From contig JAEBUN010000055.1 of NCBI GenBank assembly GCA_023014365.1, positions 124,001 to 188,000 on the forward strand: a DNA stretch of 64,000 nucleotides. The letters are read 5' to 3'. Positions 2,597 through 64,000 of the stretch are shown one piece after another. A program made the position numbers and the translations under genes. The DNA comes from Lepiota brunneoincarnata (taxonomy: Eukaryota; Basidiomycota; Agaricomycetes; Agaricales; Agaricaceae). The notes under the pieces are model-generated. The model saw only the letters and a program-made list of their open reading frames with translations. It did no database searches and was not told where the DNA came from. Position 1 is the stretch's first letter. Each line of letters opens with the position of its first letter.

Positions 2597-3019
2597 TAAC
2601 TTTGACCATGGTATAAGGAGACAAGTGGTAAACTTGAGTGCACTCAACTTTGAATATTGTATGGGCTGATAAGTGGCAAATGCAAGCATACTTAACTTTG
2701 ACACTTGTTTACACATACAAGCAACAAAGCTAAGTTCTTAACTTGGGCATTTATTCATGCTCTTAGTTAGATATATTTGAGTACATTCCCCATATATACT
2801 GTTATCTTGCACTTAAATACATAAAATCTTGCAGATAGTTCAATATACTTAAGCTAATTCTCTATATATTCTACAGAAATGATATTTTGGTATATTTTCA
2901 ACTTTACTATATTTTTTAAAGTGAACCTAGCATTTTGAAAGCCTAAGCCTAATGTCTTGCACTAGAACCTAGTCAAATAGCAGTTAGCCAGCACCAGGAA
3001 GTCTTGTGGGTGCAGTGGG

Positions 3020-3440
3020 ACCTGTGTGCTCATATAAGCCTTCTCCATGAGAAGTCCAACTCATCCAGAGTTAGTTGCCCTGGTAAGTTCCTATGGTCAC
3101 ATGCTTTGCATGTAATGTGGTTATATATATTTTCCTTTGGTGAAAAATGTGAGTTATTTTTAGCTGATTATGTAAGCTGCTCCACAGATTGCATAGCCCC
3201 CTATCACAATCACATTAGATAAGCAAGGTAAGCTTTCCCATTGGATGGACAGTGCAAGTTTGCTCAGACAATCATGTGTCTGATGAGTCTTAAATAAAAT
3301 GAAATGGGTGGGATCATTTGTTCTAACAACCCCATTGCACCTGTCCATACTCACCATCATACATTTCCTCCTCCTCTGACCCCATTGCACCTATCTGTAC
3401 TCACCATTATATATTTTCTCCTTCCCTAAACCCCTAGGAA
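3020..3440 (+). mobile_element. Internal, CpG-depleted relic of the subtelomeric Penelope-like element (subfamily B)
   Basis: This + strand stretch aligns by eye, in order, with the minus strand of the subtelomeric units at 54.9-55.27 and 60.6-61.0 kb. Shared blocks include GGTGAAAAATGTGAGTTATT (3140-3159), the hammerhead core near 3280-3303, and a 3' tail ending in CTCCTTCCCTAAACCCCTA near 3420-3437, which is telomere-like in the CCCTAA sense. The tail block (CCATTGCACCT...) is duplicated in tandem at about 3330 and 3383. Nearly all differences from the subtelomeric copies are CpG to TpG or CpA, a methylation/RIP-like signature. Its orientation is opposite to the telomeric array. Confidence 0.75.
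3276..3340 (+). ncRNA. Decayed hammerhead ribozyme of the internal Penelope-like relic
   Basis: The core CTGATGA (3280-3286) and the GAA with stem III strand ATGGGT (3301-3308) are present, with a partner ending CCCAT and then TGCAC near 3331-3340. Stem I still pairs (GTGT with GCAC). Stem II (GTCTTAAATAAAAT) no longer closes, so activity is unlikely. Recognised by alignment to the intact copies at 54.5-62.1 kb. Confidence 0.7.
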
Positions 3441-4760: not shown

Positions 4761-5709
4761 CTGTGCCCTCCTTACTGTCCTAGTCTATGCTCTGGGAAGA
4801 GCAGAGCAGAGCCAAGTGGGGCTGAGTGGAAATGGCAAGATAGGAGATAGGGATAGAAATTCACTGTTCAAGTTGATTATCAGGTTGGAGTTACAAGTCA
4901 GGTATTCTACAGTATATATATTAACATCTTAATAGAATGTGACTAGTAATGACTATAGGTGGAGATAGGTGGGAACCAAATAGGATTACAAACAATAGTC
5001 TAGAGATGAAGACTGATATGGAAATAAACTAAATCTTACTGAGGAAATACAGAATAGAACAGGGTATAGACAGGGATGGCAGGATTCAGGTACAAGATTG
5101 CTAGAGGTCAGATAGCCATGGCATGTGGTCAGGGATAGTCTTGTGATGAGACAGTAGGGGTTGGAGCAGGGCTAAGTGGGTCCATGGTAGGGTAAGGGGT
5201 CAGAGTTTAAAGCCTAATTAGACTTTGGTTGACATGGATGTGACATGGGCAGGATGAATGACCTCTGATCCTAGTACTGAAATAATCTCTGACCTTGGCA
5301 CCAAAATAACCTCTGACCCTTGGTGCCAATCTATGGGAATGATGGCCAGTCTTGATAATAAATATTCAATTGTTATCCCACCTTGAGATATTTGTTAGAT
5401 ATTTTTTATTTTCATGCAATATTACAAAGGAGGAAATAATATTTCACTTGAGACAGGTGACAATATAAGGGCCCCACAGAGAGTGCCATAAACATTCCCA
5501 TACATTCAAAATGTGCTGACAAATGTACATGCCCCACAAATCTAGTCATACACCAGCAGTGAGAACCACAGAAATTGCTGAAGGCACTTGAAATACGATG
5601 AAAAAACAATTGACAGAGCAAATTTCCACTCTCACGAGTTTCATGGTTGCGTTCCACCGGCGACAGTCTCGTTACATTATTCATAAGTAAATACCAAATG
5701 GCACCATTT
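4761..5709. other. No gene recognised; repeat-derived spacer
   Basis: A purine-rich stretch (about 4790-5200) and short internal repeats of the type ATAACCTCTGACC near 5260-5330 suggest old transposon or LTR sequence. No convincing protein or RNA gene is visible. The stretch ends at the 3' end of the GH3 gene. Confidence 0.4.
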
Positions 5710-8700
5710 TTACGATACAGTCAATGTTGCCTGCTGGAAGCGTTGGTCACTGGTACCAACTTTGATCGTGAACGTGCCAGGCTCGACTATCCAGCTATTA
5801 TCACGAGACCACAAGCCAAGGTCTTGCAGATTAACATCAAGAGTTACTGTTGTGGACTGACCAGCACTGTTGTTTCTCATTCAGCAAGACGTACGAGATC
5901 GAAATTAAATAGGACGCACGGTATTTCAACTTTAGTAAAGCCAACTAGCTCCTGATTGGGCGTGACTACGGAGCTACGGTCATCCGTTGCGTACACTTGG
6001 ACGACTTCTTTGCCTGTCCGCGATCCCCGATTGCTGACAGTGACAGAAACCTTGAAGGATTTCGCGTTGCGACTGACAGTTGAGGGTGAGAGCCTCAGGC
6101 CTGAGCTGTCGCGTCGCTGAACACGCAAATTCATTCAGTATATATAAACTTACTAATTGAACGTGGTATAGCTCAGGCCGTGGCCAAAGCTCCAAAGGGG
6201 TTGAGGACTGTTGAGAACATACTAAACGGTGTCAACAAGGAACGCTAGAATGCGACCCAAAGACACCCCTACCTGGTTTCCAAACTTCAAGGTACCATCA
6301 TCAAGAACCGATCCAGGGTTCGAGGCGGGTCGCCCTCCCTTGAGATAGTTGTAGAAAGCTGGAGTAGTTCCGACATCTCGAGGAACAGAAACGGAGAGTT
6401 TTCCTGAAGGGTTGACGGTGCCAAAGATCACCTCCGCAAGGGCGCGGCCTAGACAATCTTGGCAACGGTGGAGTAACGGAGCTGGGCAGCGTACGTACCT
6501 CCGTATTCACCAGGATAGAATTGGTGAATAATAGCATTTGCGTCTATCATCCAAACGAGATGAGAATTCTAGTAACGGGGTTGAAGATCTGGGGACTCAC
6601 GATCCTTGACCCACGGTTCTGCAACTGGCTTACCAGTTACGTAGACAATAATAGTCGGCTTTCCGGTAGACCGAATGGCCTTGATAAGCTCAAGCTGAGC
6701 TCCAGCAAGACCAAGATCAGATTGATCCCGCATTTCTCCCGTCGTCGCATTGGTTCCTGGTGTCCAGAGCAAGGTTTGATCGAGGGACCACGTTCCGACC
6801 TATGTCATAATTTATCAAAGCTCTTGTCCGCATTCCCTCCCGATTAGACGTACCATGACGATAGCTGCGTCAGAATTGCGAGCGGTTTGGACGGCCTCCG
6901 GGAAGCCAGATTGGTCGTTCGACCAGAGCTGAGCCCCTTGGGCGAAGTTGATCTGAGCAGAGCTAGAAATGCTTGCGAGGTGTTGCTTGAAGCCTTCGAG
7001 AGGGCTGATAGCGTTATGAGTGGCATTGAAGAAGACATAGTCACCGAACTTCCGAAAGTCAGACCAATGGAGCACGATGGTGGCAGTTCGAACACGCACC
7101 GAAACTCGGTTAACTTGGGGTCCAATAAGGGCAATAGATCTGATGTTCGGGCTGAGCGGAAGAACGTTGTTCTTATTCTCCAGGAGCACGATGCTCTCGC
7201 GATCCGCTTGCTGGAGAACTGCTTGTCCGGCTGATGTGCGAAGGGTTGAGAGGTAATCCTCATAGGGATACGGGTCTGTAGGCGGTAAGCCAGGAAACAA
7301 TGCCAAGATTGATCCACATACTTTCAAAGAGACCCAATGAGAATTTGGTGCGCAAAAGATATCGGACGGTATCGTCAATAAACTTAACATTAATCTGGCC
7401 AGATTGTACTTGTCGCACGAGTGTTTCATAGGTGTATGTACCTGGCGATGAGGGTTAAGATCCCATGTCAGATTCCGAGTGTGATTCTACTTACCGCCAC
7501 CCATCTCACCACTCAGACCATTCTCTAGGGCAGCCTTCGCTGCACACTCTCGGGTATCGCAGGTTCCATGCATTGTAATTTGTAGATCGATCGAGCCAGC
7601 ATCGCAGGTAACCCAGTACTTATAGCCCCATTCATTGCGAAGCTAGGGGAGTTGACATTGAGTCATCGCATCATGATGGCGGATAGCCTTGGCTTTATAA
7701 ACTTACAATGTCAGTTAGGAGGTCTAGCGGAAATTATCAACTTCGGAAGAACAGGCACACGTAAATGAGGCGTACGGGAGTTAGCCACAGCAGGGATACC
7801 ATCGTAGCTAGCATAAGCAGTCATGATAGAAAGGGAATCCACACAGGCGCGATGGAAGGGGCGCAAGTATGCTGTTCGTAGCTCCCGTTCTCCTCCAGTG
7901 ACCTGGGCAAGGTTCCTATTTTCCAAGTGTTGAGCAAACTCTCGTCTGAAACTAGGGTATGGGGAGAGGGGCGGTACTCACAATCCACCCTGCGGAGATC
8001 CGAAAGCTGCAAAGTGCTTGCATGTGGCAGCGACACGAGCAATAGCAGTAGAGCTCGTATTTCTGCGTCTGCCATCCTGGAGACCATGGATGTACGCGCT
8101 CCCAAGCTCACCAGTGAGATAAGGGCATTCGCCGAAGCCCTCCTCTATGCGACCCCACCTCAACTCGCGTGCAAGGTCGAGAACGGGTGCGAAAATGTGG
8201 TTGATACCAAGGCCCTCGGCCTCTTGAGCGACGATGTTTGAAACGTTGTGGATCAGGTCTTTGTTAAACGATGCGGCAAGACCGATAGGCGAAGGGAAGA
8301 TGGTGCCATTATTGGTGAAGCCATGAAGACCTTGAAATGAAGCTTGGTTGAGCACAGCGGAGGGTGGCAGATATCCATGACGTACCCTCGGACTGGAAGA
8401 GAGCCGGAATGCCCAATGTCGTGTTTGCCACGAGATAACGTTGGCCAACCGTGACGGCATAAACAAACTTTTCCCAGGGCACTTGATATCCTCCCCAGAT
8501 ACTACCTGCCCTCGTACTCATCATATGTTCCTACCCCCCAAGTTCCTCCGGTTACATACACAAATACGCGGCAGAGATTGACACTCACCAGGCCCGTCTG
8601 ATTGTGTGCAAGTGTATTGTCCAAGGGGTCGCTCATATCCATCCACCCATTGATATCACCTTGAATTCTGAGTATCGTTAGCCACCACCGCACGATTCAG

Positions 8701-8957
8701 GACAACGCTCTGACGCCTGCCTACAATTGTGAAACCTTCTCCTCTAGTGTCATTCGTGGCAACAAATCATTGACTCTAGCTTCAATTGAAGCCTGGGGGT
8801 TCTTGTAAACCGGGATTGAACCATCCTTATTGGCCTGACGCGCTTGCAGGCTAAAATGTAGATCATTCCGAACACCAAATGGATCATGACCGATGGAAGG
8901 TCGAGACAGACATAAAATAAAGGCGGACAAGAGCAGGATATTTTTCAGGCCTGCCAT
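5710..8957 (-). CDS. Glycoside hydrolase family 3 beta-glucosidase, secreted (multi-exon)
   Basis: The start ATG (8957) opens a signal peptide (MAGLKNILLLSAFILCLS). The N-terminal TIM-barrel domain follows, with NTTLGIPALFQSEG, a GFGECPYLTGELG stretch and the CKHFAAFGS block. The nucleophile Asp is in WVTCDAGSID (about 7600). The second alpha/beta domain has RESIVLLENKNNVLPL (about 7200) and GAQLELIKAIRSTGKP (about 6680). The C-terminal fibronectin-III-like domain has GKEVVQVYATD and ELVGFTKVEI (about 5960-6000). The stop is TAA at 5710-5712. Introns of about 50-60 bp split it; for example exon 1 ends at 8725, and a later exon resumes in LEHMMSTRAGS. Family role: release of terminal beta-glucose from oligosaccharides outside the cell. 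All conserved blocks are present, so it is probably functional. The downstream exon borders are approximate. Confidence 0.88.
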
Positions 8958-9943
8958 AGCGGAGCGGAAAACTAGATCAGGAACGAGTCGTGGGGGATTA
9001 CACGCTGTTCTTCAGCTTTTAACGTGCTTCAGAAACAACGACACATGCTCTCAACCCCCTAGAGGAGCAAATGCGGTCCTTAATCGCTACAAATACAATT
9101 CTTCGCTTGATGCACTTTTGGCCGACCCATGCAAAGACCAGCTGACCACAGAAGGATGGAGGGTTTGTCTAACACGGTCCGCTATGTGTCCGCTATGTGT
9201 TCAAGGGTCTTTGCCCGAGATTTCTCCTAGCCAGTTCCCGGTCCCCTGGTAATAATAGATTAGAAACCGTGTACGCATTCTAGGCATCGCGTTCACAGGA
9301 AAAGAAGCCGCTAATTTTGCCACGGATGTATCGGGCTGAGTGAATTGTGATGGCTATGGCAATCAGAAAGGGTGCTTCGCCATTTGGCCTTTTCTCAGCG
9401 AGGCGATCGAACCTGCACTATTGAGTCATCAATACCGGAAAGACGGGAGTGGTCGATGAAATGGCAAAAAACACTGCCGTTTTGTCGCGATAATACTCCC
9501 CCCGTTCAATCTCAACGAGTGGGTATCTCGCATATCTTCGCAAAAAAAGCACTTCACGTCCATCATCGCTATTACCAGATGCCGAGCTCTTACTATTTCT
9601 ATGAGCCTGCTATAGGGAAAAGCACTGAGCGAACTTGAGCACATGACGTAAAAATGGCGAAACAGATCAGGCCCGGAGGCTGGAGAGAATAATGATATGC
9701 TCGTTTCACAATTTCTGGCGCATTACATCACATAATAATCAGTATTGAAACGTTAGTTTACGGGACGCTACAGTAAGGCTGGTTGGAATACTAATACTAC
9801 TAATGCGAGCCGACTATGAGGTATATAGGTTCATTAAATTACGCATGATGGTATCGTGCTACTTTCTCACCCACGGTGCCTACCGTCTCCTCGACCTCGA
9901 TCAATTGGTGCGAGATTGCCTGCCTTCGGACAGTCCGACAACT
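8958..9943. other. Intergenic region, GH3 upstream and peroxygenase-like downstream
   Basis: Both flanking genes are on the minus strand, so this holds the GH3 promoter (near 8960-9250) and the 3' region of the peroxygenase-like gene. The only open frames are short and unconvincing. No repeat was seen. Confidence 0.5.
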
Positions 9944-30585: not shown

Positions 30586-33500
30586 ATGGTGTGCACTATT
30601 GGTATGTTCACTAGTCGTTATTCTGTGATTACAGGTATGTCATACGGCCTCATGATAGGCGCCATGATGGAAGGTACGAAAACGGGGCGAACGGTGATGG
30701 AAGACCCAAGTGCGGCCGGGCCCACATCTGTGAATGCTCCGAATGCAGAAGTTCTGAACCGTCGCGGTGACTTTTTCAGCGACCAGTTTGAGGAAACCAA
30801 CAGTGAAGATGATATCAATCAGGCGATCTCGGCATATGAATTAGCAGTCCAGCTGACACCCCCCGACCACGAGAATTATGGGCTCTACATATCGGATACT
30901 GGGGTAGCACTTCTGCGCCGCTTTGGAGTAAGCGGGAGGGTGCCCGACATTAACCGGGCAGTATCCATGTTGGAGGCTGCCATTAACGTCACCCCAGAGG
31001 GTAATGCTAGCCTGCCCCCACGACTCAGTAACCTCGGAATCTCGTTGCAGAGCCGCTTTGAGTGCACTAGAGACCCCGAAGACATCAAAAGAGCAATATC
31101 TTATCTCCAAAGGGCGGCTGAGCTCGTCCCCGAGGACCATGCCAATTTACCTGCATGGCTCGATAGCCTTGGAATCACATTTCAAAGCTATTTTGAAAGC
31201 ACTGGGGATCCCGCCAATATTGAAATGGCGATATCGAATCAACAAAGGGGCATTGAGCTCACGCCCGAAGGCCACGCCAGGTTGGCTTCACAGTTCAACA
31301 ACCTCGGAATCTCATTCCAGAAGCGCTTTGAATTCACCGGCGAGCTCGCGGACATCGAGAAGGCAATATATAATCAACAGAGTGCTATCGAGCTCACTCC
31401 AAAGGGTCATGCTGACCTACCTTCGTCGCTCAATAACCTTGGAATATCGTTTGGGAGGCGTTTTGAATGCACTGGAGATCTTGTAGATATTGAAAAGGCG
31501 ATTTATAACCAGCAGAGGGCTCTCGAGCTCGTTCCAGAAACCCATGCTTGCCTGCCTCCGTGGCTCAATAATCTCGGACTCCTGCTCGACAGACGTTTTG
31601 AACACGCTGGAGATCTTGCAGATATTGAAAAGGCAATATCCAACATCCAGAGGGCTATTGAACTCACCCCTGAAGGTGATGGTGGTCTACCTTCACGGCT
31701 CAATAGTCTCGGGATCGTATTCAGAAGCCGTTTCGAATTCACTGGAGATCTCGCAGATATCGAAAGAGCGATTTCAAATCAACAGAGAGCAGCTGATCTC
31801 ACTCCAGAGGACCATGCCGACCTGGCTTTGTGGCTCAATAGCCTCGGAAATTCGCTTCAAGACCGTTTTGAATGCAGCGGAGATCTTGTAGACATCGAAA
31901 GGGCAATATCTAATCAACAAAAGGCTGTCAGGCTCACGCCCGAGGGTCATGCAAGCCTGTTTTCGCAGCTTAACAATCTCGGAACTCTTTTCGTTCGACG
32001 TTTTCAGTGCATCGGGGAGCTTACAGACGTTGCGAGGGCAATATCTCATCAACAGAGGGCCATCGAACTCACCCCTGTTGGTCACGCCAGCCTGGCCACG
32101 CAGCTTAATAACCTTGGAATCTCATTCCAAAGCCGCTTTGAACGCACTGGAGATCTCGTGGACATCGAAAAAGCAATTTCGAATCAACAGAAGTCTATCC
32201 AGCTCACTCCAGCAGGCCATGCTGCCCTTCCTTCGAGGTTGAATAGCCTTGGATTGTCGTTTCAAGCCCGTTTCGAACGCACAGGTGACCTTGCAGACAT
32301 CGATGGAGCAGTGTTCAGCAATCAGAGGTCTGTCAAACTCACTCCAGAAGGTCATGTCGAACTGCCCTCACGGCTCAATAACCTTGGAGTCACACTCCAA
32401 ACACGTTTTGAAAGCACCGGAGAACTTGCAGACATTCAAAATGCGATATCCAATCTTGAGAAGGCCATTGAGCTCACTCCAGAGAGCTACCCAGACTTAC
32501 CCTCGTGGTTGAATAACCTGGGAACCTCATTCCAAAACCGATTTGAATGCACGAGGAATCTCACAGACATTGACAAGGCAATATCCAACCTTCAGAAAGC
32601 TATCAAGCTTACTTCAGAGGGTCATGCAGACCTACCGTCACGGCTCAATAACCTTGGAGTCTCATTTCAGAGGCGTTTTGAATGCACGAAAGATCTCGCA
32701 GATATCAAAATGGCAATATCGAATCTTCAGCGGGCTATCGAGCTTGCTCCAGAGGGTCATGCCTCTCTGGCTGCATGGGCTGGTAACCTTGGAAATTTGT
32801 GGCACAGCCACTTTGAACATACCAAAGACCCAGACGACATTGACCACGCCATCCACGCTTATTCCACATCAGCTTCTCAAACCTCTGGGCACCCACCCCA
32901 GCGTTTTTATGCTGCTAGGAGCTGGGCCAAGTTATCCCATCAATTTCATCACTCCCAAACCCTCAAAGCATTTGATGTCGCCATCAAGCTCCTCTCCGAG
33001 GTTGCTGGCCTGGAACAGACAATTCACAAACGACACACAAACCTTGTTGGAAGATCCGATTTAACGACTTCCGCAACAGCTGCCGCAATTGCTGGTGGAA
33101 AATTCACACATGCTCTAACTTGGCTCGAGCAAGGCCGTTGTCTTGTGTGGAACCAGACCCATAGGCTTCGGACTCCTGTTGACACTTTACGATCCTATAA
33201 TCCTCATCTCGCAGATCGCTTTTTGAATGTTGCACATGCCCTAGAGATGTCCAGTTCTCGTCAAGAGACATCTGACGCATTTTCTGAATCAAACGTGACA
33301 CAGATGGTTGTTGCACAAAGCGACAAGCAGCGACATGCCGAGAGCGCTAAGGAATGGGCCCAAATTCTTGAGGAGATTCGCATAATCCCTGGTTTTCATG
33401 ACTTTCTTCGACCGCCAAAAGCCTCGGACATTCTCTCTGGCTTGCCCCATGATGGTCCTGTCATCATCTTTAACATTGACATTGAACGATGCGATGCCAT

Positions 33501-52718: not shown

Positions 52719-53000
52719 TAACACCGCTCCAGCTGAAAAAGGCCAACATAGCGGTCATAAACGTCCTAGCCATTCGAGGTTGTCAGGAAGGACATTATAC
52801 GAGCATGCGCAAGTCGTGGGGAAGCAGAAGTGGACTGTGGACTCGATCAGGTCGTGGTCTGAGCAATGCGATCGTCCTGTTTACGCATGATACTTGATCT
52901 TGGACCTTGTAATATGTACCCCATATTCCGTGGGTCTGAGAAAATGTTATGCTTTTGACGAGAGGGAAAGGGCTTCGGGTGTTGGCACAACCCCACACGG

Positions 53001-53788
53001 GTTATCAGGGGGACTCAAGGGTTGGATTCGGGTTCATAGTCCAGGGTCTTGGGTTGCAGGCTGTGGAGGGAAGGATGTGGAGGGAGGGTCTTGGGTTGGG
53101 TTGCAGGCTGTGGAGGGAAGGGTGTAGAGGGAAGAGTGTGGACTCTGGAGACAAGGGTGTAGGGTGAGAGGATGGGGTGTGGGTGTGTGGATGTACAGCA
53201 GAGTACAGGATGAGAGTGGACAAAGAGGGAAGCACAAGGAAGCAGGGTGTCAGGTGTGCAGAAGATATTGTATGTATAAATACAAGTTGATCTGGACAAG
53301 GAAGCAAGACAGTGAGACAAGTGTGCAGAAGATACTGTATGTGTAAATGCAAGTTGATCTGGACAAGGAGACAAGACAGTGAGACAGGTGTAGGGTTATC
53401 AGGGGGACTCAAGGGTTGGATTTGGGTTCATAGTCCAGGGTCTTGGGTTGCAGACTGTGGAGGGAAGGATGTGGAGGGAGGGTCTTGGGTTGGGTTGCAG
53501 GCTGTGGGGGGAAGGGTGTAGAGGGAAGAGTGTGGACTCTGGAGACAAGGGTGTAGGGTGAGAGGATGGGGTGTGGGTGTGTGGATGTACAGCAGAGTAC
53601 AGGATGAGAGTGGACAAAGAGGGAAGCACAAGGAAGCAGGGTATCAGGTGTGCAGAAGATATTGTATGTATAAATACAAGTTGCTCTGGACAAGGAGGCA
53701 AGATAGTGAGACAAGTGTGCAGAAGATACTGTATGTGTAAGTGCAAGTTGATCTGGACAAGGAGACAAGACAGTGAGACAGGTGTATA
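53001..53788. repeat. 394-bp tandem direct duplication (two copies)
   Basis: The unit starting GTTATCAGGGGGACTCAAGG at 53001 recurs at 53395 with few changes. Inside each unit a 67-bp block (GTGTGCAGAAGATA...) is itself repeated in tandem (53254 and 53321), and a shorter GGGTCTTGGGTTG block is repeated. One strand is G-rich; open frames on the other strand are artefacts of composition. Confidence 0.9.
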
Positions 53789-53890
53789 ATGCAAGTAATT
53801 CAAATATAAATTCAGGGAATGCTCCAATTGTTATGGGAAAAGTTGTGTTGGACTTGTATATATGGGGTGGTTTGAATGGCACTAGACAGA

Positions 53891-54398
53891 ACCTGGCTCG
53901 TCGACGACGAGTAGTGCTGTGAATTTATGTGCAGAATAAATGATAATTCAATATCATATTCTGTGGTATTTCAATTGTCTTGGACAAGCTATCATTATGT
54001 TTGTCTCAGGAAGACGATTCCAACGGGTATGAACACAACCTGGCTCATCTACAATGAGTAGTGCTGTGAATTGCTGTATATAATAAATGATAAATCTATA
54101 TAATATTCTCTGTGGTACTTCATTCGTCGTGGACGAGCTGTCGATGCATTCATCTCAGTGAGACAATTCCAATGGACATGGACACAACCTGACTCGTCTA
54201 CGATGAGTAGTGCTAGGAATTATTGTGTGAAATAAATGATCAATCAATATAATATTCTGTGGTATTTCATTCGTCGTAGACGAGCTGTCGATACATTCAT
54301 CTTAGTGAGGCAATTCCACTGGGCATAGGCACAACCTGACTTGTCTATGACGAGTAGTGCTGTGAATTGTTGTGCAAAATAAATGATAAATTGATATA
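53891..54398. repeat. Satellite-like array of about 148 bp, about 3.5 copies
   Basis: The marker ACCTGRCT recurs at 53891, 54038, 54187 and 54334, giving periods of 147, 149 and 147 bp. Each unit carries a pair of inverted elements (CTCGTCTACGATGAG and TCGTCGTAGACGAG) about 85 bp apart, separated by AT-rich sequence. No coding capacity. Confidence 0.9.
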
Positions 54399-54521: not shown

Positions 54522-54533
54522 TTAGGGTTAGGG
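54522..54533 (+). repeat. Telomeric tract TTAGGGTTAGGG at junction
   Basis: Two TTAGGG units separate centromere-proximal sequence from the first Penelope-like unit; read as a remnant telomere. Confidence 0.75.
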
Positions 54534-54897
54534 AAGGGGGGACTAAAACACGAGTCGCGACGGTGGGGCGCAACGGGTTGTTGGGGTTTCCAACTACCCA
54601 CCCGTTTCGTCTTATAAAGACTCATCAGGCGCACGATATCCGTCAGATACCTGCCATCCAATCGATTGTCGCCGATAGCGATCGATTGCGATTTTGATCG
54701 ATAGATCAAAATCCGCGGAACGTATTTATAATCCCCCCGTTAATAACAGGTGAAAATAGGATTAAAAACTTAACTTCGAGTTTCGAAACTTACCGCGCTG
54801 ACTTAGACGCGCGCTTGCGTCTGGGAAAAGTCACGTGATCGTGCGACCGGTCACGTGCCATCGGGCTATGTTACCCGACGACAGAACAATCCGGGCC
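54534..54897 (-). mobile_element. Penelope-like element unit A1 (5'-truncated)
   Basis: Subfamily A 3' region only: tail, hammerhead ribozyme and CACGTG-rich segment. It is truncated at its 5' side (right) where TTAGGG begins. Orientation is defined by the reverse transcriptase in unit A5, with the 3' end to the left. Confidence 0.8.
54568..54632 (-). ncRNA. Hammerhead ribozyme (unit A1)
   Basis: On the minus strand: stem I GCGC, core CTGATGA, stem II GTCTT-TAT-AAGAC, GAA, stem III ACGGGT closed by ACCCGT, then T before GCGC (cleavage expected after that T). Type-I-like layout with short stem I, as known for Penelope-like elements. Confidence 0.88.
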
Positions 54898-55270
54898 GGG
54901 GTTAGGGTAGAAGGAAATATACGACTGAGCCGGTGGACTTGGGCGCAACGGGGTTGTAAGTTAGCACGATCACCCACCCGTTTCGTCCTTATATCGGACT
55001 CATCAGGCGCACGATTAGTCCATCAGACTTACCATCCATCCAATCGGAAAGCGTTCCGGGCTTACCGATCGGGATTGCGACAATTGCTGTGCAATCCGTG
55101 GAACAGCTTACTTAACAAAGCCAAAAATAACTCACATTTTTCACCGAGGGAATATGCACGTGACCACGTGATCACGCTGAGAAAAATCACGTGACCGTGG
55201 GAACTTACACGGGCGACTAGCTCCGTGGAAGTCGGACTCCCCACGGGGTCGGGCTTACCTCAGCGCACAG
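54898..55270 (-). mobile_element. Penelope-like element unit B1 (5'-truncated), with flanking TTAGGG tract
   Basis: Subfamily B 3' region, starting at GGGTTAGGG (54898-54907) and ending at GGGTTAGGGG (55270-55279). Shares the tail and hammerhead position with A but differs in sequence. Contains three CACGTG palindromes near 55150-55195. Confidence 0.8.
54943..55010 (-). ncRNA. Hammerhead ribozyme (unit B1)
   Basis: Core CTGATGA, stem II GTCC...GGAC (a C-G pair where A copies have U-A), GAA, stem III ACGGG with CCCGT, then T and GCGC. The compensatory change in stem II supports selection for the fold. Confidence 0.88.
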
Positions 55271-55279
55271 GGTTAGGGG
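55270..55279 (+). repeat. Telomeric tract at junction
   Basis: GGGTTAGGGG between unit B1 and the 3.9-kb inserted segment. Confidence 0.6.
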
Positions 55280-55589
55280 TTATTAGAGGCTACTAGGGTC
55301 GGACTAGGGTCGGAAGCCCGACTATGGCAGGGTTGGTGGCAGGGTTGGTGGCAGGGTGTACTGGCACACCTCTGGCTTGATGAGGATGGGCCACATCAAG
55401 ATGAGTGCATGAACACTTGTCTTATCTCTCATAGGTTGAGTACTTGTATTAGCAGGCTCAGGTCATGGGTGTAAATTGATTTCATGGTAAATACATCATC
55501 TACAAATGTGATTACAAGATGGGCGAGACGAACGACTGCTTGGTGAAGGTACTGGCAAATAAAATGCCAGAGTTGAGAGAATACGTACG
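55280..55589. other. Non-coding 3' flank of the 843-residue gene
   Basis: Contains a small tandem GGCAGGGTTGGT repeat (near 55325-55355). No gene. Confidence 0.35.
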
Positions 55590-58227
55590 TCATGATGATT
55601 CAGCAGGTTCCTCCCACTGTGGAGTACGCTTGACAAGAATTCGTGGTGCTGCTCCCTTCGTTCCAGGTGGGAGTCTCGTGAATATGCTGAGACATGAAGT
55701 CGGCCATAACTTGTCTTGGCATGCGTGCGGAATCCAGGCCAGGGACCAGATCTTCTTCCATAGCTCGTTGTTGATTGCTTTTACGGTGGCAGGTTTGCCC
55801 GTTGCACAGATCTCCTTCCACTTGAGGTAGTATCGACACTGTGTGTAGCCTTGGACGTTTGCTGCTGTGAGGTGACCAAGGGGCGGGAATAGGTGGTTGA
55901 AAGACCGTTTCCAGTCATCCGAGGTCCCAACCTTGTATTGACATTCGCGCCATAGATCGGACAGCTTGATAGTCTTGTACACGTCCTCGGATACTGACAA
56001 CCTGTCGTCTCTTGAGATTTTGAAGTAAGAGGGTCGGGTAGCGCCAGAGGGATTAGGTGTCTTGACAGCAATGTCAATGAGGAACTGTCGCCATAGCTGA
56101 GTGACAACAGCGTCAATGTTTTCACCCGCCTCCTCATGTACTTCTGGGTCGTCGATATCGGAGCCATCGTCAATAGGTGGCGGGGGGAGTGCATGGCCTT
56201 TCTCTGCAAGATTGAACAGATTTTCATCGGGGGCATCGGTCGTATTGATGTAGGCAGGTGTATGTCGCGTCTTGTTGGTTACAACGCGTTGTCTGGCTAC
56301 AACGTTCCTTGGTACAATGCCAATTTTGTAGTACTTGAGTTTGATGTCCTCGAACGGTGCTCTGAAGATGTATTTGAATGCTGCTTGGGGGAGGGAAGGG
56401 CCGCCAACCCTCATCCGGGGCACGTCGACGTCAACTTTGATAGGACGTAGGAATATGACGCCATATGGGTTGTATGGCACTAACCGTTCCCCATCGTCGG
56501 AGCCGCTCTCCTCCTCCTCCTCCTGCTCCCTTCCGAAAGAAGGATGGCACGCAAATGTATCACTCGTGGTGTTGTCCGCCTCCGTCACTGGCAGCACAGC
56601 ATACATCAAGCTGCGGTACGCGGGGCCATCATCCGGTCGTGAGTGAAGGCCGTTGATGAGCCACTGACACGCGGCAGATAAGGAGAGGGCATCGGGGCGG
56701 ACGCGAAGTGCGGGTGCACCGCAAGCCTGCATAGACACGACTCGGCTGAAAGCCATCAATCGGTATGCTCTAAAGTTCCTTTTAGGAGGATCAGTAGGCC
56801 GATCAATTGTCAGTCCAATTCAGACGGCTCACCACCATTCCGAACGAGTGAACGACAGCAATGATTGGCAAATCGTTGTGCGACTCAACCGCGTGAGGAC
56901 TTGGCTTGCATGCTCGTAGGGGACTCGAACCTCCACTCGCGCGTTTGACACGTTCTTCGCGATCGCACTCGTGTACACGTTGAGCAAGCCCTCAACAAAT
57001 GCAGGAGGCTGGGTCGGGCCCATCACTTGATCCATGGTGACGGCTTTTCCATGGTGTCCACCCTCAGGATTATACGTAAGTGCTTTATCTGTCGTGTACA
57101 TCTGGAAGTAGGCGGCTTCGAACGGTCCTTGAGCACGAACGCCAGGCTCGATACGACACCCAGATACAGTAGTGAGGTGACTGCATAAATCGCGTGAATA
57201 CTTTGAGCTCCCGATGCTGGTGATTCGATTGGCTTGTTCATTCGAGATCTGGAGGACGTGCTCGACAATGAGGAAGTGAGAGGCCGTTGTCCATTGCAGG
57301 CAGTGACCACGGCTACTGTGGAACTCCACACCTACATCTACCCACCACTGGCCCTCTTCCGCGGCAGTGAGCGGTATTTTCGCATCAAGGAAGAACTCCT
57401 CAAGCGCGACTTCAGCGGAATCTGAATTCAAGGAGTGCTGTGTGCCGTGTTTAGTTCCACGGATGGTGTGTAAGAAAAAGAAGTCCTTGGCCCAGTCAAC
57501 GCCATTTTCGTCCACCTTTGATCGTAGGGTGGATACCAGAGCCAGTAGGACCCATTCGGGAACCAGCTTCGTCTGGTATGCGATGTGGCCCGACCGTTTC
57601 TTGGCGCGGAACATCTCCGCCTGATACGTGGCCGGCCAGTCACAAACATCGTGGGGAAGTATATCCTCGATTGTTTTCCAAAGGCACTTGTCGTAGAATT
57701 GTTCCATTTGTTTTACCGATAGTTTCGGGCCAGAGCTATTATCCTCCTTCCAGAGAGAGGGGAAAAATATATGGATCATGTGGCGTTGACCCCAATATCC
57801 AAATAGCAGGTTTGGGATTCGGTGAACAGGTACAGCGTGTGTCATCTGCGAACGGGCCATGAGCTGGGAGGGTGAGGGCCGGAAGGTTGCTACTTACATC
57901 GCCTCTCTGGATTGGACGGGCAATGTGGATACTCGTTGTCAAGGCGTCGGCAGGATTGGGTACAGGATGTACAGATACGGACGAATTAACAATGATGTCG
58001 TCGTGGAGGCAGATCATCGAGTCGTAATCACGACTGACCTCGATAGGATGATCGTCTGCGAGGATATTGCGCATGGCATCTAGGACAGCTTGACGGCGAC
58101 CGGCGACGTTGCCAGTAAGCGCAAACTGGAGGAAAGCGGAATTGTCTGTCGATTCTACTGATTTCAGGAATCGAACAAACTCGGCCAGCGTGTACGTAGT
58201 CAGCGGGAGCGATGAATAAAGATCCAT
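55590..58227 (-). CDS. Uncharacterised 843-residue protein, Agaricomycete family
   Basis: Three exons (58227-57898, 57845-56833, 56778-55590) joined by introns of 52 and 54 bp give 2,532 bp, exactly 843 codons plus stop, with no defect. Recognisable blocks: LTTYTLAEFVRFLKSVES near the N-terminus, RIPNLLFGYWGQRHMIHIFF after the first junction, DWPATYQAEMFRAKKRSG, WAKDFFFLHTIRGTKHGTQH, WWVDVGVEFHSSRGHCLQW, and an acidic stretch (EQEEEEESGSDDGE). I recall similar unnamed proteins in large numbers in some agarics but know no function. No membrane span or signal peptide is seen. It sits between two blocks of telomere-attached retroelements, so it is a subtelomeric gene and may be amplified elsewhere. 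Confidence 0.75.
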
Positions 58228-58917
58228 GAATTCAAGGGTGGAGGGGAGGGGAGGGTAAGTACAATCACAGTCAGGTGGAGATGCGTGTATATGACTAGTA
58301 AATTAATCTCGCAGTACAGCGTCCTCCAGATCACAAGGCATCGAAATGAGGAGGCAGTAGACTAGTGGGGAGCGAAATACATGGAAGTTCGAGCGCGCTC
58401 GTCCAGAATATGGTTCATATTGACGACGGATAGTTTTCAGGCCGGCCAGATGCACGTGGAAACAGATAGCGGGTTGCATAATACAGGATGAATGGAGGAT
58501 CCGAACGGGAAGAGAGGAGATGGTTCGTCTAGGCCATCGGAGCGCGAGGCGAGTGGCGAGTATGAACGGGAGAAGGAAATATTCGTCCACGACGGATGTT
58601 GAACAGAGGGAACGGTGGATCTGGATAGGAAGACGTGAGGCTCGTCCACAGCGGAGCCATAGAATAGCGAATAGGTGGGCACAGGAACGGATAGATAGAT
58701 CGGTCGGAAAGCAGCGTGCACAGAACCATGCAGGGAGTAAACTCCTTTACATGATGTGCCGAGACCGTTGAGATCGCGCGAGGAGTAAACTCCGTCACGC
58801 CATGTCAATGGGCGGATTGGTGAAGAAATCTAGAAGCTGATGTAAATCCAAGACGGCTGGGGGGGTACTCACCATGACTGATGTAGGGGTGTTGGCGGTG
58901 GGCACGCTAGCGATGGT
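58228..58917. other. Upstream region of the 843-residue gene
   Basis: Promoter-side flank. No gene recognised. Ends at the fold-back palindrome. Confidence 0.35.
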
Positions 58918-59161
58918 GAGCGGGGCAGGGGTGGATGGAAGTGATGATGGTCTCTGAGATCAAGGATGACGTCTTGGACGTCCGGATATTGTTTGTTTGT
59001 TTGCCTCTCTGCCGGCTGACCAAATAAGCAACAACAACATCCGAGCCGACATTATTTGGTCAGTCGGCAGAGAGGCAAACAAACAAACAATATCCGGACG
59101 TCCAAGACGTCATCCTTGATCTCAGAGACCATCATCACTTCCATCCACCCCTGCCCCGCTC
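58918..59161. repeat. Fold-back inverted repeat: 109-bp arms, 26-bp loop
   Basis: Arms 58918-59026 and 59053-59161 are reverse complements with one mismatch. The loop is 59027-59052. The right arm ends one base before GGGTTAGGG. Both arms carry an AAAC/GTTT-rich stretch and ATATTG next to CCGGACGTCC. Confidence 0.95.
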
Positions 59162-59441
59162 AGGGTTAGGGAAGGGGGGACTAAAACACGAGTCGCGACG
59201 GTGGGGCGCAACGGGTTGTTGGGGTTTCCAACTACCCACCCGTTTCGTCTTATAAAGACTCATCAGGCGCACGATATCCGTCAGATACCTGCCGTCCAAT
59301 CGATTGTCGCCGATAGCGATCGATTGCGATTTTGATCGATAGATCAAAATCCGCGGAACGTATTTATAATCCCCCCGTTAATAACAGGTGAAAATAGGAT
59401 TAAAAACTTAACTTCGAGTTTCAAAACTTACCGCGCTGACT
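59162..59441 (-). mobile_element. Penelope-like element unit A2 (5'-truncated)
   Basis: Subfamily A, preceded by a short TTAGGG tract (59162-59171) and truncated at CTGACTTAGG, where the next telomeric tract starts. Contains one hammerhead. Confidence 0.8.
59206..59270 (-). ncRNA. Hammerhead ribozyme (unit A2)
   Basis: Same fold and core as unit A1, with all pairing positions preserved. Confidence 0.88.
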
Positions 59442-59464
59442 TAGGGGTTAGGGTTAGGGTTAGG
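59441..59464 (+). repeat. Telomeric tract (about four TTAGGG units)
   Basis: TTAGGGG then three TTAGGG-type units between A2 and A3. Confidence 0.85.
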
Positions 59465-60275
59465 AAAAGGGGAGCTCAAATACACGAGTCGCGACGGAGG
59501 GCGCAACGGGTTGTTGGGGTTTCCAACTACCCACCCGTTTCGTCTTATAAAGACTCATCAGGCGCACGATATCCGTCAGATACCTGCCGTCCAATCGATT
59601 GTCGCCGATAGCGATCGACTGCGATCGGTTACTTGCGTAACGCGATCCGCGGAACGTGTACGTAATCCCCCCATCAAATGGGCGAAAATAGATTAAATAC
59701 TTATCGTCGAGTTTCAAAACCATCGCCGTGCTGACTTTGGCGCGCGCTTACGCCTGGGAAAAGTCACGTGATCGTGCGACCGGTCACGTGCCATCGGGCT
59801 ATGTTACCCGACGACGGAACAATCCGGGCCGGGGTAGGGCCGTCACGTGACAACGCAACAAGGTGCACTTTCGCACGGGGTCCAAGCGTGGGAGACTTGT
59901 GAAACCCGGCACCGGGGACATGAATACCCGGTGGCGGTGTACTTACCTTAGGTGGCTGTCCTTCCCACGGGTCTGCTAGAGTACGCCCCGCCCGACCGGG
60001 ACGGTTAGGTCCGGGTTAGGTCAGGGTTAGGGGTGAGCTTAGTATTAGTAAGCCGCACTCGTTGGGAAGGTAAGGTAGTACTTACCGCAAAGAACGTTCC
60101 GCACGGCATATAACCGGCGAAGAAGCGAGTTAACCGCCACCAGGGGGAGAACTTGCGTTGTTTACCGCTTGACGCGAGAGCTACTTTTCGAGAGACTTAG
60201 GAAGGAGGCATAACCGCCCCCCCAGACGTGGTTCCGGGTTACGCCGCACCATCACACCCAAACCGATAAAAGGCC
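59465..60275 (-). mobile_element. Penelope-like element unit A3 (5'-truncated, about 0.8 kb)
   Basis: Matches the first about 0.8 kb of unit A5 (61988-62807), including the hammerhead, CACGTG motifs, an internal degenerate telomere-like tract (60003-60033) and a segment ending ACCGATAAAAGGCC, where TTAGGG takes over. Confidence 0.85.
59501..59565 (-). ncRNA. Hammerhead ribozyme (unit A3)
   Basis: Core, stem II and stem III as in A1; intact. Confidence 0.88.
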
Positions 60276-60305
60276 AGGGTTAGGGTTAGGGTTATGGGGG
60301 TTAGG
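60276..60305 (+). repeat. Telomeric tract
   Basis: AGGGTTAGGGTTAGGGTTA followed by TGGGGGTTAGG; junction A3/A4. Confidence 0.85.
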
Positions 60306-60618
60306 AAAGGGGGCGTATAAACACGAGTCGCGACGGAGGGGCGCAACGGGTTGTTGGGGTTTCCAACTACCCACCCGTTTCGTCTTATAAAGACTCATCA
60401 GGCGCACGATATCCGTCAGATACCTGCCGTCCAATCGATTGTCGCCGATAGCGATCGATTGCGATTTTGATCGATAGATCAAAATCCGCGGAACGTATTT
60501 ATAATCCCCCCGTTAATAACAGGTGAAAATAGGATTAAAAACTTAACTTCGAGTTTCAAAACTTACCGCGCTGACTTAGACGCGCACTTGCGTCTGGGAA
60601 AAGTCACGTGATCGTGCG
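60306..60618 (-). mobile_element. Penelope-like element unit A4 (5'-truncated)
   Basis: Subfamily A, about 0.3 kb, ends after GTGATCGTGCGA at the next TTAGGG. Confidence 0.8.
60341..60405 (-). ncRNA. Hammerhead ribozyme (unit A4)
   Basis: Identical in core and stems to A1. Confidence 0.88.
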
Positions 60619-60661
60619 AGGGTTAGGGAAGGAGGAAATATACGACGGCGAGCGTGGACGG

Positions 60662-60726
60662 GCGCAACGGGGTCGTTAGTATTAAACGATCCCACCCGTT
60701 TCGTCTTATAAAGACTCGTCAGGCGC
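60662..60726 (-). ncRNA. Hammerhead ribozyme (unit B2, CUGACGA core)
   Basis: The core reads CTGACGA, allowed by the CUGANGA consensus. Stem II is GTCTT-TAT-AAGAC. Stem III (ACGGG/CCCGT) extends with ATCGTT/AACGA. Cleavage T precedes GCGC. Confidence 0.85.
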
Positions 60727-61744
60727 ACGATTAGTCCACAGACTCTTACCTGCCCGACCAATCGGAAGACTTACACTTATCTTACCGATCGGGAAGCACA
60801 GTGGCTGTGCATTCCGTGGAACACTTAATAATTAAAGTTATAACTCACTTATTTCACCGAGGGAAAAGTCACGTGCCCAAGAAATCACGTGGAGAAAATC
60901 ACGTGACCGTGGGAAGAAACATCGGGCGACTGACTCCGATGGAATCGGACTTCTCACGGGGTCGGACTTACCTCAGCACACAGGTCCGAGTGCCTCCCAA
61001 AAGACTTACAGATCCGCCCTAACCGGGGTTCTCACGCTACCGTAGGAAATCGCACATGACCCCGGGCCGACAGGTCCGGGTGAGTTATTAATAGGACATG
61101 ACGTACCTATTAGCGCACACATACCGAAGTGGTTGATCTTCGCACGGTCCTAAAGAGGAAGCCCCTTCCTACGCCACCCCGAGCGAGCGCAAAGTACGGG
61201 CTCGGTTAGGTTTCGGTTAGGGTTAGGGGGGTTCCCACGGTTAGTGTGGGTCCTCTCTGATGCGAAGGTAAGATATGTGCTTACCGCAAAAGTTCCGCGT
61301 CGGGCGGCGACCGTAAAAACGGCGCCCACCACAAGGTTTGAAGTTGGGGATCTACCCTGGACTTACGGTCGATTCTCGGCTTCTCAGTAAACGTACTTAG
61401 GGGGGACGGCCATCGGTAGGCGGGTCCCTTTCAATAGAGGTTCCTGCGGTCCGCTGCACCAGCGCTCCCTACCGATAAATGGCCACCACTTGAAATCCTG
61501 TTTTCGCGTGCCGGCTCTCGAAGTCCGGGTCGTGCAGAGCGAAGTCTTCAAACAACGCCCCCCAGGCAGGTTACCAAGATCAGTTTTTACGGGCCCCGCC
61601 GACGTCAGTCAATCACGACCAACGCCGGTCCGCAGCAATGGCTAGGTTTCCCATAACGCCAAAGGACTTAGCCGATTGTGGACGCGCAATGGCGTGCAGC
61701 CGTAAACGCGACAGACACAACCGGTACCTCTAAGCCATATCCGT

Positions 61745-61962
61745 CTACCTAGCAGCTTCGAATACATTCAGCCAGGTATCAAGCGTTCTCTGTCTCTGAT
61801 GAACTTCAAAGACGTCCTCAACCGCTTGTCGATCTCTTTGAGTAAGAACAACTTTCCGCCAAACGGCGGCGAGATCCATAATCTGCGTGGTTCGTTTCTT
61901 AGAAACTAACACGCGTCTGGGTAAAAGATCGAGTTTATCGAGCCTTAAAAAACGACCGCGAC
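61745..61962 (-). pseudogene. C-terminal fragment of Penelope-like reverse transcriptase (unit B2)
   Basis: Reads GRFLRLDKLDLLPRRVLVSK then KRTTQIMDLAAVWRKVVLTQ and RDRQAVEDVFEVHQRQ to a stop at 61745-61747. It begins abruptly at the telomeric tract, so it is a 5'-truncation product. It reveals the correct C-terminal frame of the family. Confidence 0.8.
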
Positions 61963-61991
61963 GGGGTTAGGGTTTAGGGTTAGGGGTTAGG
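61963..61991 (+). repeat. Telomeric tract
   Basis: GGGGTTAGGGTTTAGGGTTA then GGGGTTAGG; junction B2/A5. Confidence 0.85.
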
Positions 61992-62026
61992 AAAGGGGGC
62001 GTATAAACACGAGTCGCGACGGAGGG

Positions 62027-62091
62027 GCGCAACGGGTTGTTGGGGTTTCCAACTACCCACCCGTTTCGTCTTATAAAGACTCATCAGGCGC
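62027..62091 (-). ncRNA. Hammerhead ribozyme (unit A5)
   Basis: Core CTGATGA, GTCTT-TAT-AAGAC, GAA, ACGGGT/ACCCGT, T, GCGC; intact. Confidence 0.9.
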
Positions 62092-63062
62092 ACGATATCC
62101 GTCAGATACCTGCCGTCCAATCGATTGTCGCCGATAGCGATCGATTGCGATTTTGATCGATAGATCAAAATCCGCGGAACGTATTTATAATCCCCCCGTT
62201 AATAACAGGTGAAAATAGGATTAAAAACTTAACTTCGAGTTTCAAAACTTACCGCGCTGACTTAGACGCGCGCTTGCGTCTGGGAAAAGTCACGTGATCG
62301 TGCGACCGGTCACGTGCCATCGGGCTATGTTACCCGACGACGGAACAATCCGGGCCGGGGTAGGGCCGTCACGTGACAACGTAACAAGGTGCACTTTCGC
62401 ACGGGGTCCAAGCGTGAGAACTTGTGAAACCCGGCACCGGCGACATGATTTACCGGTGGCGGTGTACTTACCTTAGATGGCTATCCTTCCCACGGGTCTG
62501 CTAGAGGACGCCCCGCCCGACCGAGCCGGTTAGGTCCGGTTAGGTTCGGGTTCGGGTTAGGGGGTAACATAGTATTAGTATGCCGCCCTCGTCGGGAAGG
62601 TAAGGTAGTACTTACCGCAAAGAACGCTCCGCACGGCATATAACCGGCGTTTTAAAGCGAGTTAACCGCCATCAGGGGTCGAACTTACGTTGTTTACCGT
62701 TTACGCGAGAGTTACTATTCGAAAGACTTAGGAAGGGGGCATAACCGCCCCCCCAGACGTGGTTCCGGGTTACGCCGCACCATCACACCCAAACCGATAA
62801 AAGGCCACCTATTTAAAAACCTGTTTTCGCGTGCTGCGATCGAAGCGCAGGTCGTGCAACCCCGAAGTCTTCTAACAACGGGGTCCCAGGAAGGTTACTC
62901 AAGATCAGCAAATATGGGCCGGCCGACATACGGGAATCACCCCGCAGAGGTCGGTACCCGAACGCCCAGGGATTTCCCCATTTGGACGCCGACTTGGTAC
63001 CAGTCGCCGCAGCTAGGTTGTGCGGACAACTACGGCTGGCATGGTATACCACGTAAGCCATA

Positions 63063-64000
63063 TCAATCGAAGTTCGCAATCGCGATCCACGGATCAGGCG
63101 TCTTCTCACGGTGGTGTTCTACCGCCGGAGCGGAAGAAGAGGCCACGGGAGCTCGAGCTTCGGCGAAGAAGTCGGTAATTAACGCCTGGCGGTCGCGCCG
63201 CGCGAGAACAGAAGCACGCCAAATTGACGTAAGGTCCATTATCTGTCGGGTTCTTTTCTTCGAAACCAACAGACGGCGACCGAAAGAGACCGAGTCTATC
63301 TAGGCGTAAGAAAGGTCCTTGCCAACCCGAGTCTAAACACCAATCCTTTGCACACTCCGCCAAGTCAGCCTCGGCTTCAGCACGCGGGATCTTAGTAAAG
63401 AGACGCATCAACTCGGACGCCTTCTTAGGGATACCTAGTTTGGTCAGATCGTACGGAAGCGGTACGTTATTCCGCCCCCGGACGTCTGCACGGGCGAAGA
63501 CATTCATTGCCTGCGCCCACCCAGTCTTCATACTGTCCTCAAGTTCGTGAGCATTAAACATGTCCCAGGATATGTTGTATTCGCTTTTTAGCACAAGCAC
63601 GCCATTCGCTGGCGGTACGGACTCCCTTAGCCGTACATCCCAACGTGCTCGGTAGTTATCGCGAAGCCAAGCGGCGATCAACAACGGAGGGTAGCCACGC
63701 GCAATGTAGATATCCGAAGCTTCTCTACATGCCTTCACGTAATCGTCGAAACGCGAAGAAAGCGCGGCAAGCCTCGACAGCTCTGATACAAACGTCCCTT
63801 TCTTAACGTAAAGGGGATGAAAGCTGATCCAAGGAATGCGCTCAAAGTGGTTCATCGGTTTCCTATACGCCTTATGGTGGAGGCGACCGTTTGCCGTAAA
63901 CAGCATCATGTCTAGGAACACCATGTATTGATCCGAAGATGACCACGTAATGGTACAGTTATCGAACATTAAATTATCTCTGAGTAGCCGCAAGGCATCC
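63063..64000 (-). pseudogene. Reverse transcriptase of Penelope-like element, C-terminal part, frameshifted
   Basis: The upstream frame gives DQYMVFLDMMLF (end of the palm), then thumb-like sequence FERIPWISFHPLYVKKGTFV, ELSRLAALSSRFDDYVKACR and ARGYPP, which is characteristic of Penelope-like RTs. After WQGPFLRLDRLGL (about 63290) the open frame continues to 63106 but no longer matches B2. The matching sequence (VSKKRTRQIMDLTSIWRASV, then LARRDRQALITDFF) is in another frame ending at 63063. A one-base shift at about 63280-63300 therefore breaks this copy, unless it is a sequencing error. The catalytic YxDD lies outside the window. Confidence 0.8.

Follow-up and report, generated by a model that had tools for sequence, protein, structure and literature searches.

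The 64-kb window analyzed here (C53:124001-188000) lies in the 55.6-Mb, 95-contig genome of the agaric Lepiota brunneoincarnata and contains hammerhead ribozymes situated within the repeated ends (pLTRs) of ~4.7-kb retroelements, near contig ends. The genomic copies of these elements show that the RNA from which they were copied was continuous across the ribozyme cut site. The motifs of the window are, by their sequence, type I hammerheads with an open stem I and a long closed stem III. The host elements are probably compact, endonuclease-less Penelope-like elements (PLEs) that add themselves to agaric chromosome ends, and the best model, which shares this somewhat better than even probability, is that an uncut linear RNA carrying the hammerheads in its pLTRs would be primed internally by the telomere at CCCUAA.

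In the RNA, a tail complementary to TTAGGG stands directly 3' of the ribozyme and ends in CCUAACCC, followed by the 5' untranslated region (5'UTR) and the open reading frame (ORF) of a reverse transcriptase (RT). This anatomy bears out the preliminary description of the window, which had placed the ribozymes in retroelement ends next to a telomere-complementary tail. A tandem pLTR-ORF-pLTR organization is found in 20 full-length units of 4.72 to 4.79 kb. The genome contains 185 ribozyme cores of families A, B, and C and 7 cores of a further family, D; the 100 listed places of the 185 A/B/C cores are all on the sides facing contig ends. Repeat anatomy, orientation, and telomere junctions can thus be read from the copies themselves, as can the fold with its covariation described below. 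In fold comparisons, the RT matches telomerase best, with lower-ranking matches to group II intron, LINE-1, and viral polymerases. Pfam searches with the RT sequences give RVT_1 below the cut-off or nothing, and an RT profile compared with PDB sequences gives weak, nonspecific matches only. The intact 1,289-amino-acid ORF shows no Pfam match to a GIY-YIG endonuclease at an E value of up to 1, and the copy in locus L012 has one long ORF and no accessory ORF of at least 200 amino acids. The closest named matches of the RT proteins are from Agaricus bisporus (57%) and Leucoagaricus (53%). No relatives were found in viral contigs, either by RT peptides or by the ribozyme pattern. In the L012 copy (5210-9076, minus strand), the upstream ribozyme copy is in frame with the RT ORF, giving the open frame of 1,289 amino acids, which begins before the likely start codon of the element itself.

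The continuity of the copied RNA was followed in 120 tail units tabulated in the fetched loci (A1, 20; A2, 36; A3, 19; A4, 14; A5, 11; B, 3; C, 17); an exact A-type tail motif occurs 149 times in the whole genome, and the counts of B, C, and D tails cover the fetched loci only. All 120 tails run through the cut site without a break in the ribozyme strand; one of them carries a CCCAGTT and one a CCTGTT point variant. The whole ribozyme core is recovered by a strict pattern in 110 of the 120; nine are partial and the CCCAGTT tail gives no match. Two of the nine partial tails (C43 and C62 114015) belong to complete copies in which stem III carries a point change. After a cut at GUU|GCGC, the CCUAACCC tail would remain on the 3' product, separated from the element body. 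Since every tabulated tail crosses the cut site, the copied RNAs were apparently either uncut or religated. The earlier proposal that processing of the tail end is coupled to priming at telomeres runs counter to these copies: cleavage would remove the CCCUAA tail, there is no sign of tail processing before priming, and the copies indicate the reverse.

The two ends of single copies lead to the same view. Full-length units, recognized by a tail, CCTAACCCTA, the 5'UTR, and a start codon, have an identical short telomeric run in 20 of 20 cases, and in 19 their two tails, upstream and downstream, are of one subtype. After removal of the junction-sharing copies C37 354899, C53 202261, and C53 209025, agreement stands at 16 of 17, a set that retains the pair C20 779687 and 786450, which share an upstream junction. 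Permutation of the labels gives a mean of 4.7 agreements, and none of 100,000 permutations reaches 16. Other consecutive rows less than 8 kb apart agree in subtype in 12 of 80 cases, although rows may not be true neighbors where the intervening stretches were not fetched. Because the subtypes match at both ends, the upstream ribozyme and tail appear to have been part of the copied RNA, on a template spanning an uncut or religated ribozyme.

The preliminary description listed seven minus-strand hammerheads, and all seven are present when read directly (54568, 54943, 59206, 59501, 60341, 60662, and 62027), each with the CUGANGA and GAAA segments, closed stems II and III, and U17 preceding GCGC. 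A strict type I descriptor (stem I of at least 4 bp, CUGANGA, stem II, GAA, stem III of at least 5 bp, UH) matches both strands of the 64 kb at exactly these sites, all on the minus strand, and finds nothing in 100 dinucleotide-preserving shuffles of the window searched in the same way. The motifs, with the matches of a covariance model described below, are a family A1 hammerhead with a distal stem I at 54559..54644 (match R1, 54566-54634; 92.7 bits), whose predicted cut lies between 54572 and 54571; a family B hammerhead, assigned also by its stems, at 54934..55022 (54941-55012; 79.9 bits); a second A1 copy at 59197..59282 (59204-59272; 92.7 bits); an A3 copy at 59493..59577 (59499-59567; 92.7 bits); an A2 copy at 60332..60417 (60339-60407; 92.7 bits); a family C hammerhead with the core CUGACGA at 60654..60739 (60660-60728; 88 bits); and an A2 copy at 62018..62103 (62025-62093; 92.7 bits), which is the 3' ribozyme of a full-length element extending beyond the window, with its 5' ribozyme at 2759-2827 of locus L009. 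Five sites (54568, 59206, 59501, 60341, and 62027) have an identical core, so the seven motifs represent three lineages, A, B (54943), and C (60662), and are not independent. The U-A to C-G change in stem II and the CUGACGA core, earlier taken to separate two subfamilies, are both real; they belong to different lineages, however, the former to B only and the latter, in which the altered base is N7, to C only.

From the 5' end, the ribozyme consists of the distal stem I strand, a loop of 6 to 9 nt, GCGC, CUGA(U/C)GA, stem II, GAA, stem III (A-CGGG.../...CCCG-U), U17, and a second GCGC, followed by a loop of 0 to 4 nt and the other distal stem I strand. The core follows the hammerhead consensus, in which N7 is the free position, and CUGANGA ... 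GAA ... UH with only N7 free is found in the seven window copies and in family D. In stem I, an internal loop separates the proximal helix GCGC/GCGC from a distal one, which the preliminary description had not listed, and the motifs have both this internal loop I and a loop II. The distal helices are GACGG/CCGUC in A, UGGACU/AGUCCA in B, GUGGAC/GUCCAC in C, and UAAGCAA/UUGCUUA in D, with lengths of 5, 6, 6, and 7 bp. In position-limited shuffles, these lengths are reached in 1,978, 404, 248, and 135 of 50,000 cases, respectively. The distal stems of B and C are largely common and hence not independent, and the 5' strand of A pairs over 5 bp with the 3' strand of C; in the same test, the swapped combinations of C with B and of A with C still form 7 and 5 bp. 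A test for the longest helix anywhere (2,871, 870, 245, and 331 of 20,000 shuffles for A, B, C, and D), in which some swapped pairs equal the own pairs, was set aside for the position-limited one. The covariation alignment comprises six distinct variants (A1, A4, A5, B, B2, and C) and 17 pairs, with 94 of 100 cells paired. Its covariation score of 0.141 compares with a shuffled mean of 0.056 and is reached in none of 500 shuffles, in line with the earlier statement that the fold is maintained. Both-sided changes occur in 4 of the 17 pairs, 3 of them in the inner stem III; the proximal stem I and outer stem III are invariant and therefore uninformative on covariation. The folding energies of four window copies lie 1.4 to 3.0 standard deviations below those of shuffles.

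A covariance model built from the six variants, with family D left out, finds the seven window sites at 79.9 to 92.7 bits (E values of 3.9e-18 to 2.5e-15) and, on the plus strand, a decayed eighth copy at 3274-3342. The covariance-model check proposed with the preliminary description thus succeeds with this model and fails with Rfam, which gives no match in the window at the gathering threshold. With an open threshold, all seven sites match the Rfam type III model at 20.8 to 25.4 bits, compared to a cut-off of 48.5, in a wrong topology with the flanks mispaired as a closing helix, and the copies of family D remain without an Rfam match even at E values of up to 1. Rfam was dropped as the deciding test, as shapes of this kind are outside its models and the model built here did better. 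This model also recovers family D in all four D-bearing loci among 11 loci (E values of 1.8e-5 to 1.4e-4); two of the four are the same copy, so that they stand for three of the seven genomic D places. Family D was first noticed by a scan requiring the core, and its stems and telomere tail were not part of that query. Over 300 nt, the single match of D to A is ribozyme, tail, and telomere repeats (E value of 4e-8); with C, there is a ribozyme match (E value of 1e-4) and otherwise weak pieces of 10 to 22 nt, the best with an E value of 0.33. In D, the core nucleotides are unchanged and different bases make up the distal stem I and stem III; at the five 3' ends examined, telomere repeats follow the motif immediately. 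D shares little with A or C outside the ribozyme and tail, and we regard this family as the strongest argument for a fold that is maintained rather than simply copied.

The boundaries between units provide a view of how arrays may form. Among 100 units other than full-length 5' ends, the downstream junction could be placed on the element body for 78. In 13 of these, it coincides with an internal telomere-like motif, at which the CCTAACC of the later unit overlaps CCTAACCG in the earlier one; the windows used for the motif span 46 nt (A) and 36 nt (C) of the roughly 4.7 kb. These windows were set from positions already listed, so that the enrichment is partly post hoc, and a junction is common to some of the 13 rows. 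In the window, the internal motif is found by sequence at 62527..62565 in an A2 unit, about 530 to 560 nt from the 3' end of the element, and at 61203..61231 in a C unit, both on the minus strand. Nine placed boundaries lie within the ribozyme and none at the cut site; the closest junction, shared by C46 244049 and C53 202261 as one event, is some 9 nt away. At the chromosome tip of C16, a C-type end is broken just past the internal motif and capped by telomere repeats. The boundary strings are distinct in 94 of the 100 units. The copies within subfamilies are young and have common segments, and the counts are not all independent.

In the proposed mechanism, the element RNA would span pLTR-ORF-pLTR. 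The G-rich 3' overhang of a chromosome end would pair with the CCUAAC stretch and prime the telomerase-like RT, which would then copy the tail, the ribozyme, the 3' region, and the ORF, usually stopping early. The truncated end would be healed by TTAGGG repeats or serve directly as the next primer, with the next priming preferentially at the internal telomere-like motif. The ribozyme presumably cuts, and in this mechanism cutting would act on another RNA pool, for example, by freeing a unit-length messenger, or only after copying.

Several observations weigh against this interpretation. The decayed copy at C53:127274 (plus strand) breaks the orientation rule for its nearer contig end, and one full-length copy (C20 766038/761305) is discordant in its end subtypes, A2/A1. 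In most copies, the two pLTRs resemble each other no more than they do those of unrelated copies of the subfamily; as they are not consistently closer, pLTR identity does not separate a linear from a circular template. Several rows have common boundaries, a sign that the arrays also owe their shape to the duplication of chromosome ends in blocks. With respect to the fold, the 4 pairs with both-sided changes are matched by 16 of 500 shuffles, and the 5 further pair types are matched by 101 of 500. The cut-site triplet GUU is permitted and not favored in hammerheads. ViennaRNA prefers a non-hammerhead fold by 4.7 to 9.8 kcal/mol. Composition-matched synthetic hammerheads show a median gap of 6.0 kcal/mol, and gaps of 4.7, 7.8, and 9.8 kcal/mol are reached in 2,157, 774, and 265 of 3,000 of them and in 2,754, 1,962, and 1,249 of 3,000 random hammerheads; the gap of 9.8 kcal/mol, found in A2 to A4, is thus at the high end of the composition-matched set. 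A conserved bistable switch, with CGGGUGGG competing for the CCCG strand, was considered and dropped, as synthetic hammerheads show such gaps too.

Continuity across the cut site would also be expected if the fold matters and cleavage does not, the motif serving to bind the RT or present the tail while cutting weakly or not at all. The anole ribozyme, which shows no activity in the absence of protein and is not needed for insertion in vitro (PMC11167929), lends this reading some support, but it is on balance unlikely: the 110 tails that keep the whole core with only N7 free were collected without requiring that core, and family D retains the catalytic nucleotides while its stems differ, an argument partly built in by the core scan through which D was found. 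A circular template, in which two hammerhead cuts free the ~4.7-kb coding unit, which is religated and reverse transcribed from the telomere overhang, along the lines suggested for retrozymes, has a still smaller chance of being correct. An RNA circle would explain why every tabulated copy is continuous despite a kept catalytic core, and it fits the constant junction of tail and 5'UTR and the matching subtypes at both ends; one A4 copy has identical pLTRs, whereas other A4 copies differ by 5 or more. Among the tabulated rows, however, no two full units stand back to back, one copy is discordant as mentioned above, and the ends of C45 246588 and C20 772138 differ mutually as much as from other copies, or more.

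The arrays might instead stem mainly from DNA recombination between chromosome ends, with the ribozyme as a passenger. Some segments are indeed common to contigs with the same boundaries, but few boundary strings repeat and most are distinct, and the subtype changes in 68 of 80 neighboring rows outside the full-length pairs; this explanation is therefore very improbable. Strongly disfavored, and given the least credence, is the classical processing of the 5' end, in which the cut linear RNA with 5'-OH GCGC... would be the template. This is the usual proposal for retroelement ribozymes according to the pertinent part of a review (PMC7761336), and the upstream ribozyme is positioned to leave a 5' end just before tail and ORF. 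Not one of the 120 tails ends at the cut site, however, and the junctions inside the ribozyme likewise avoid it. The uncut linear RNA remains the preferred template.

The closest described systems are the Terminons/Athena elements of bdelloid rotifers. In the sections of PMC6431247 that concern them (Arkhipova et al. 2017), these have an endonuclease-less, telomerase-like RT, a hammerhead directly ahead of reverse-complement telomere repeats, which pair with the overhang, and 5'-truncated head-to-tail arrays at chromosome ends with genes caught between units, all as in the fungal element. The same sections include a telomeric PLE subgroup without the GIY-YIG endonuclease and a ribozyme fold exposing the telomere-pairing tail, which was thus already published for rotifers. 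The fungal unit is about 4.7 kb, in contrast to Terminons of up to 40 kb with accessory ORFs (PMC6431247, same sections), and its ribozyme has a long closed stem III, in contrast to the Terminon and PLE ribozymes, which are called minimal in the relevant parts of two reviews (PMC7761336 and PMC6155905). Unlike Terminons, the fungal element lives in a TTAGGG host. Telomere-associated basidiomycete PLEs (Gladyshev and Arkhipova 2007), which go by the name Coprina, are, as described, alike in host group, chromosome-end location, and lack of a GIY-YIG match; A. bisporus, the source of the 57% identical RT, has PLEs at its chromosome ends according to PMC7473861, in whose available text the word hammerhead does not occur. 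An abstract of Cervera and de la Pena from 2014 is said to report hammerheads in fungal Penelope-like elements. In the literature searched, to the extent of the text available, no description of these fungal elements with ribozymes turned up, which does not imply absence from print.

The anole element PAc (Poseidon) is likewise built as pLTR-ORF-pLTR with a hammerhead near the ORF start, and its RT initiates internally, 3' of the ribozyme, with uncut RNA as the main template in vitro; ribozyme mutations have no effect on insertion in vitro (PMC11167929). Unlike the fungal element, PAc has an endonuclease and non-telomeric, AT-rich targets (PMC11167929). Retrozymes share type I or III hammerheads and tandem copies, but they are small and non-coding and their circles have been demonstrated, whereas the fungal element is coding; the passages of the same review devoted to PLEs describe the hammerhead role there as unknown (PMC7761336). 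All PLE sequences then available had hammerheads, as stated in the respective part of another review (PMC6155905).

Within the window, the element is represented mainly by 5'-truncated units on the minus strand. An A1 unit at 54525..54907, composed of telomere tail, hammerhead, and part of the 3' region, is 97.1% identical to the A2 pLTR and is followed by a B unit at 54899..55271 (78.7% to the C pLTR). The second group comprises an A1 unit at 59163..59444 (97.5% to the A2 pLTR); an A3 unit at 59441..60276 (88% to the A2 pLTR over 59441-60050), of which 60051-60276 is assigned solely from the start of the next unit; an A2 unit at 60277..60619 (98.8% to the A2 pLTR); and a C unit at 60619..61961 (97.5% to the C pLTR over 60619-61247), which contains a remnant of the RT C terminus at 61763-61960 (tblastn, 46.9%). 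The 3' part of the full-length A2 copy (unit of 4.73 kb) occupies 61962..64000 and runs beyond the window. It includes the C-terminal part of the telomerase-like RT at 63066..63999, matched in tblastn with the intact L012 ORF at 63283-63999 and 63066-63284; as the match changes frame near 63284, this copy is frameshifted and probably inactive. On the plus strand, an interior, decayed C-type element end at 2983..3440 has a hammerhead at 3274-3342 (47.4 bits; E value of 3.3e-8). Its segment 2983-3382 is 68% identical to the C pLTR, with 31 CpG-type transitions at 66 CpG positions, which suggests methylation-linked decay or decay resembling repeat-induced point mutation; a second partial tail was read by eye at 3383-3440.

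A gene block of about 3.6 kb (55272-58916) outside the element lies between two units. Its minus-strand ORFs, 55593-56819, 56832-57893, and 57742-58302, have no Pfam match above the cut-off; ORF 56832-57893 has 158 homologues; of the 120 listed, those with names are "hypothetical," and three of these come from the fungi Hysterangium and Dendrothele. An inverted repeat of 111 nt (58917-59027 and 59052-59162; 99% complementary, with a 24-nt spacer) has its right arm ending where the telomere repeat and A1 unit begin, and it looks like a folded-back chromosome end that was later capped. Matches to miRNA families at 58979-59100 derive from this repeat and were discarded. Tandem repeats occur proximal to the first telomeric unit at 52999-53786 (2 × 394 bp) and 53885-54398 (3.5 × 147 bp), and twelve 135-bp units (67% matches) at 31148-32762 are perhaps a protein repeat array.

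By its sequence, the element is a well-preserved fungal member of the Penelope/Terminon type with an unusually informative copy record. The Rfam models used miss type I hammerheads of such a shape. The copy record serves as a footprint test of ribozyme cutting, with the outcome that the copied RNAs appear to have been uncut or the cut resealed, which agrees with what a single in vitro study found for a distant element. If the circular reading were true, retrozyme biology would be joined to telomere extension.

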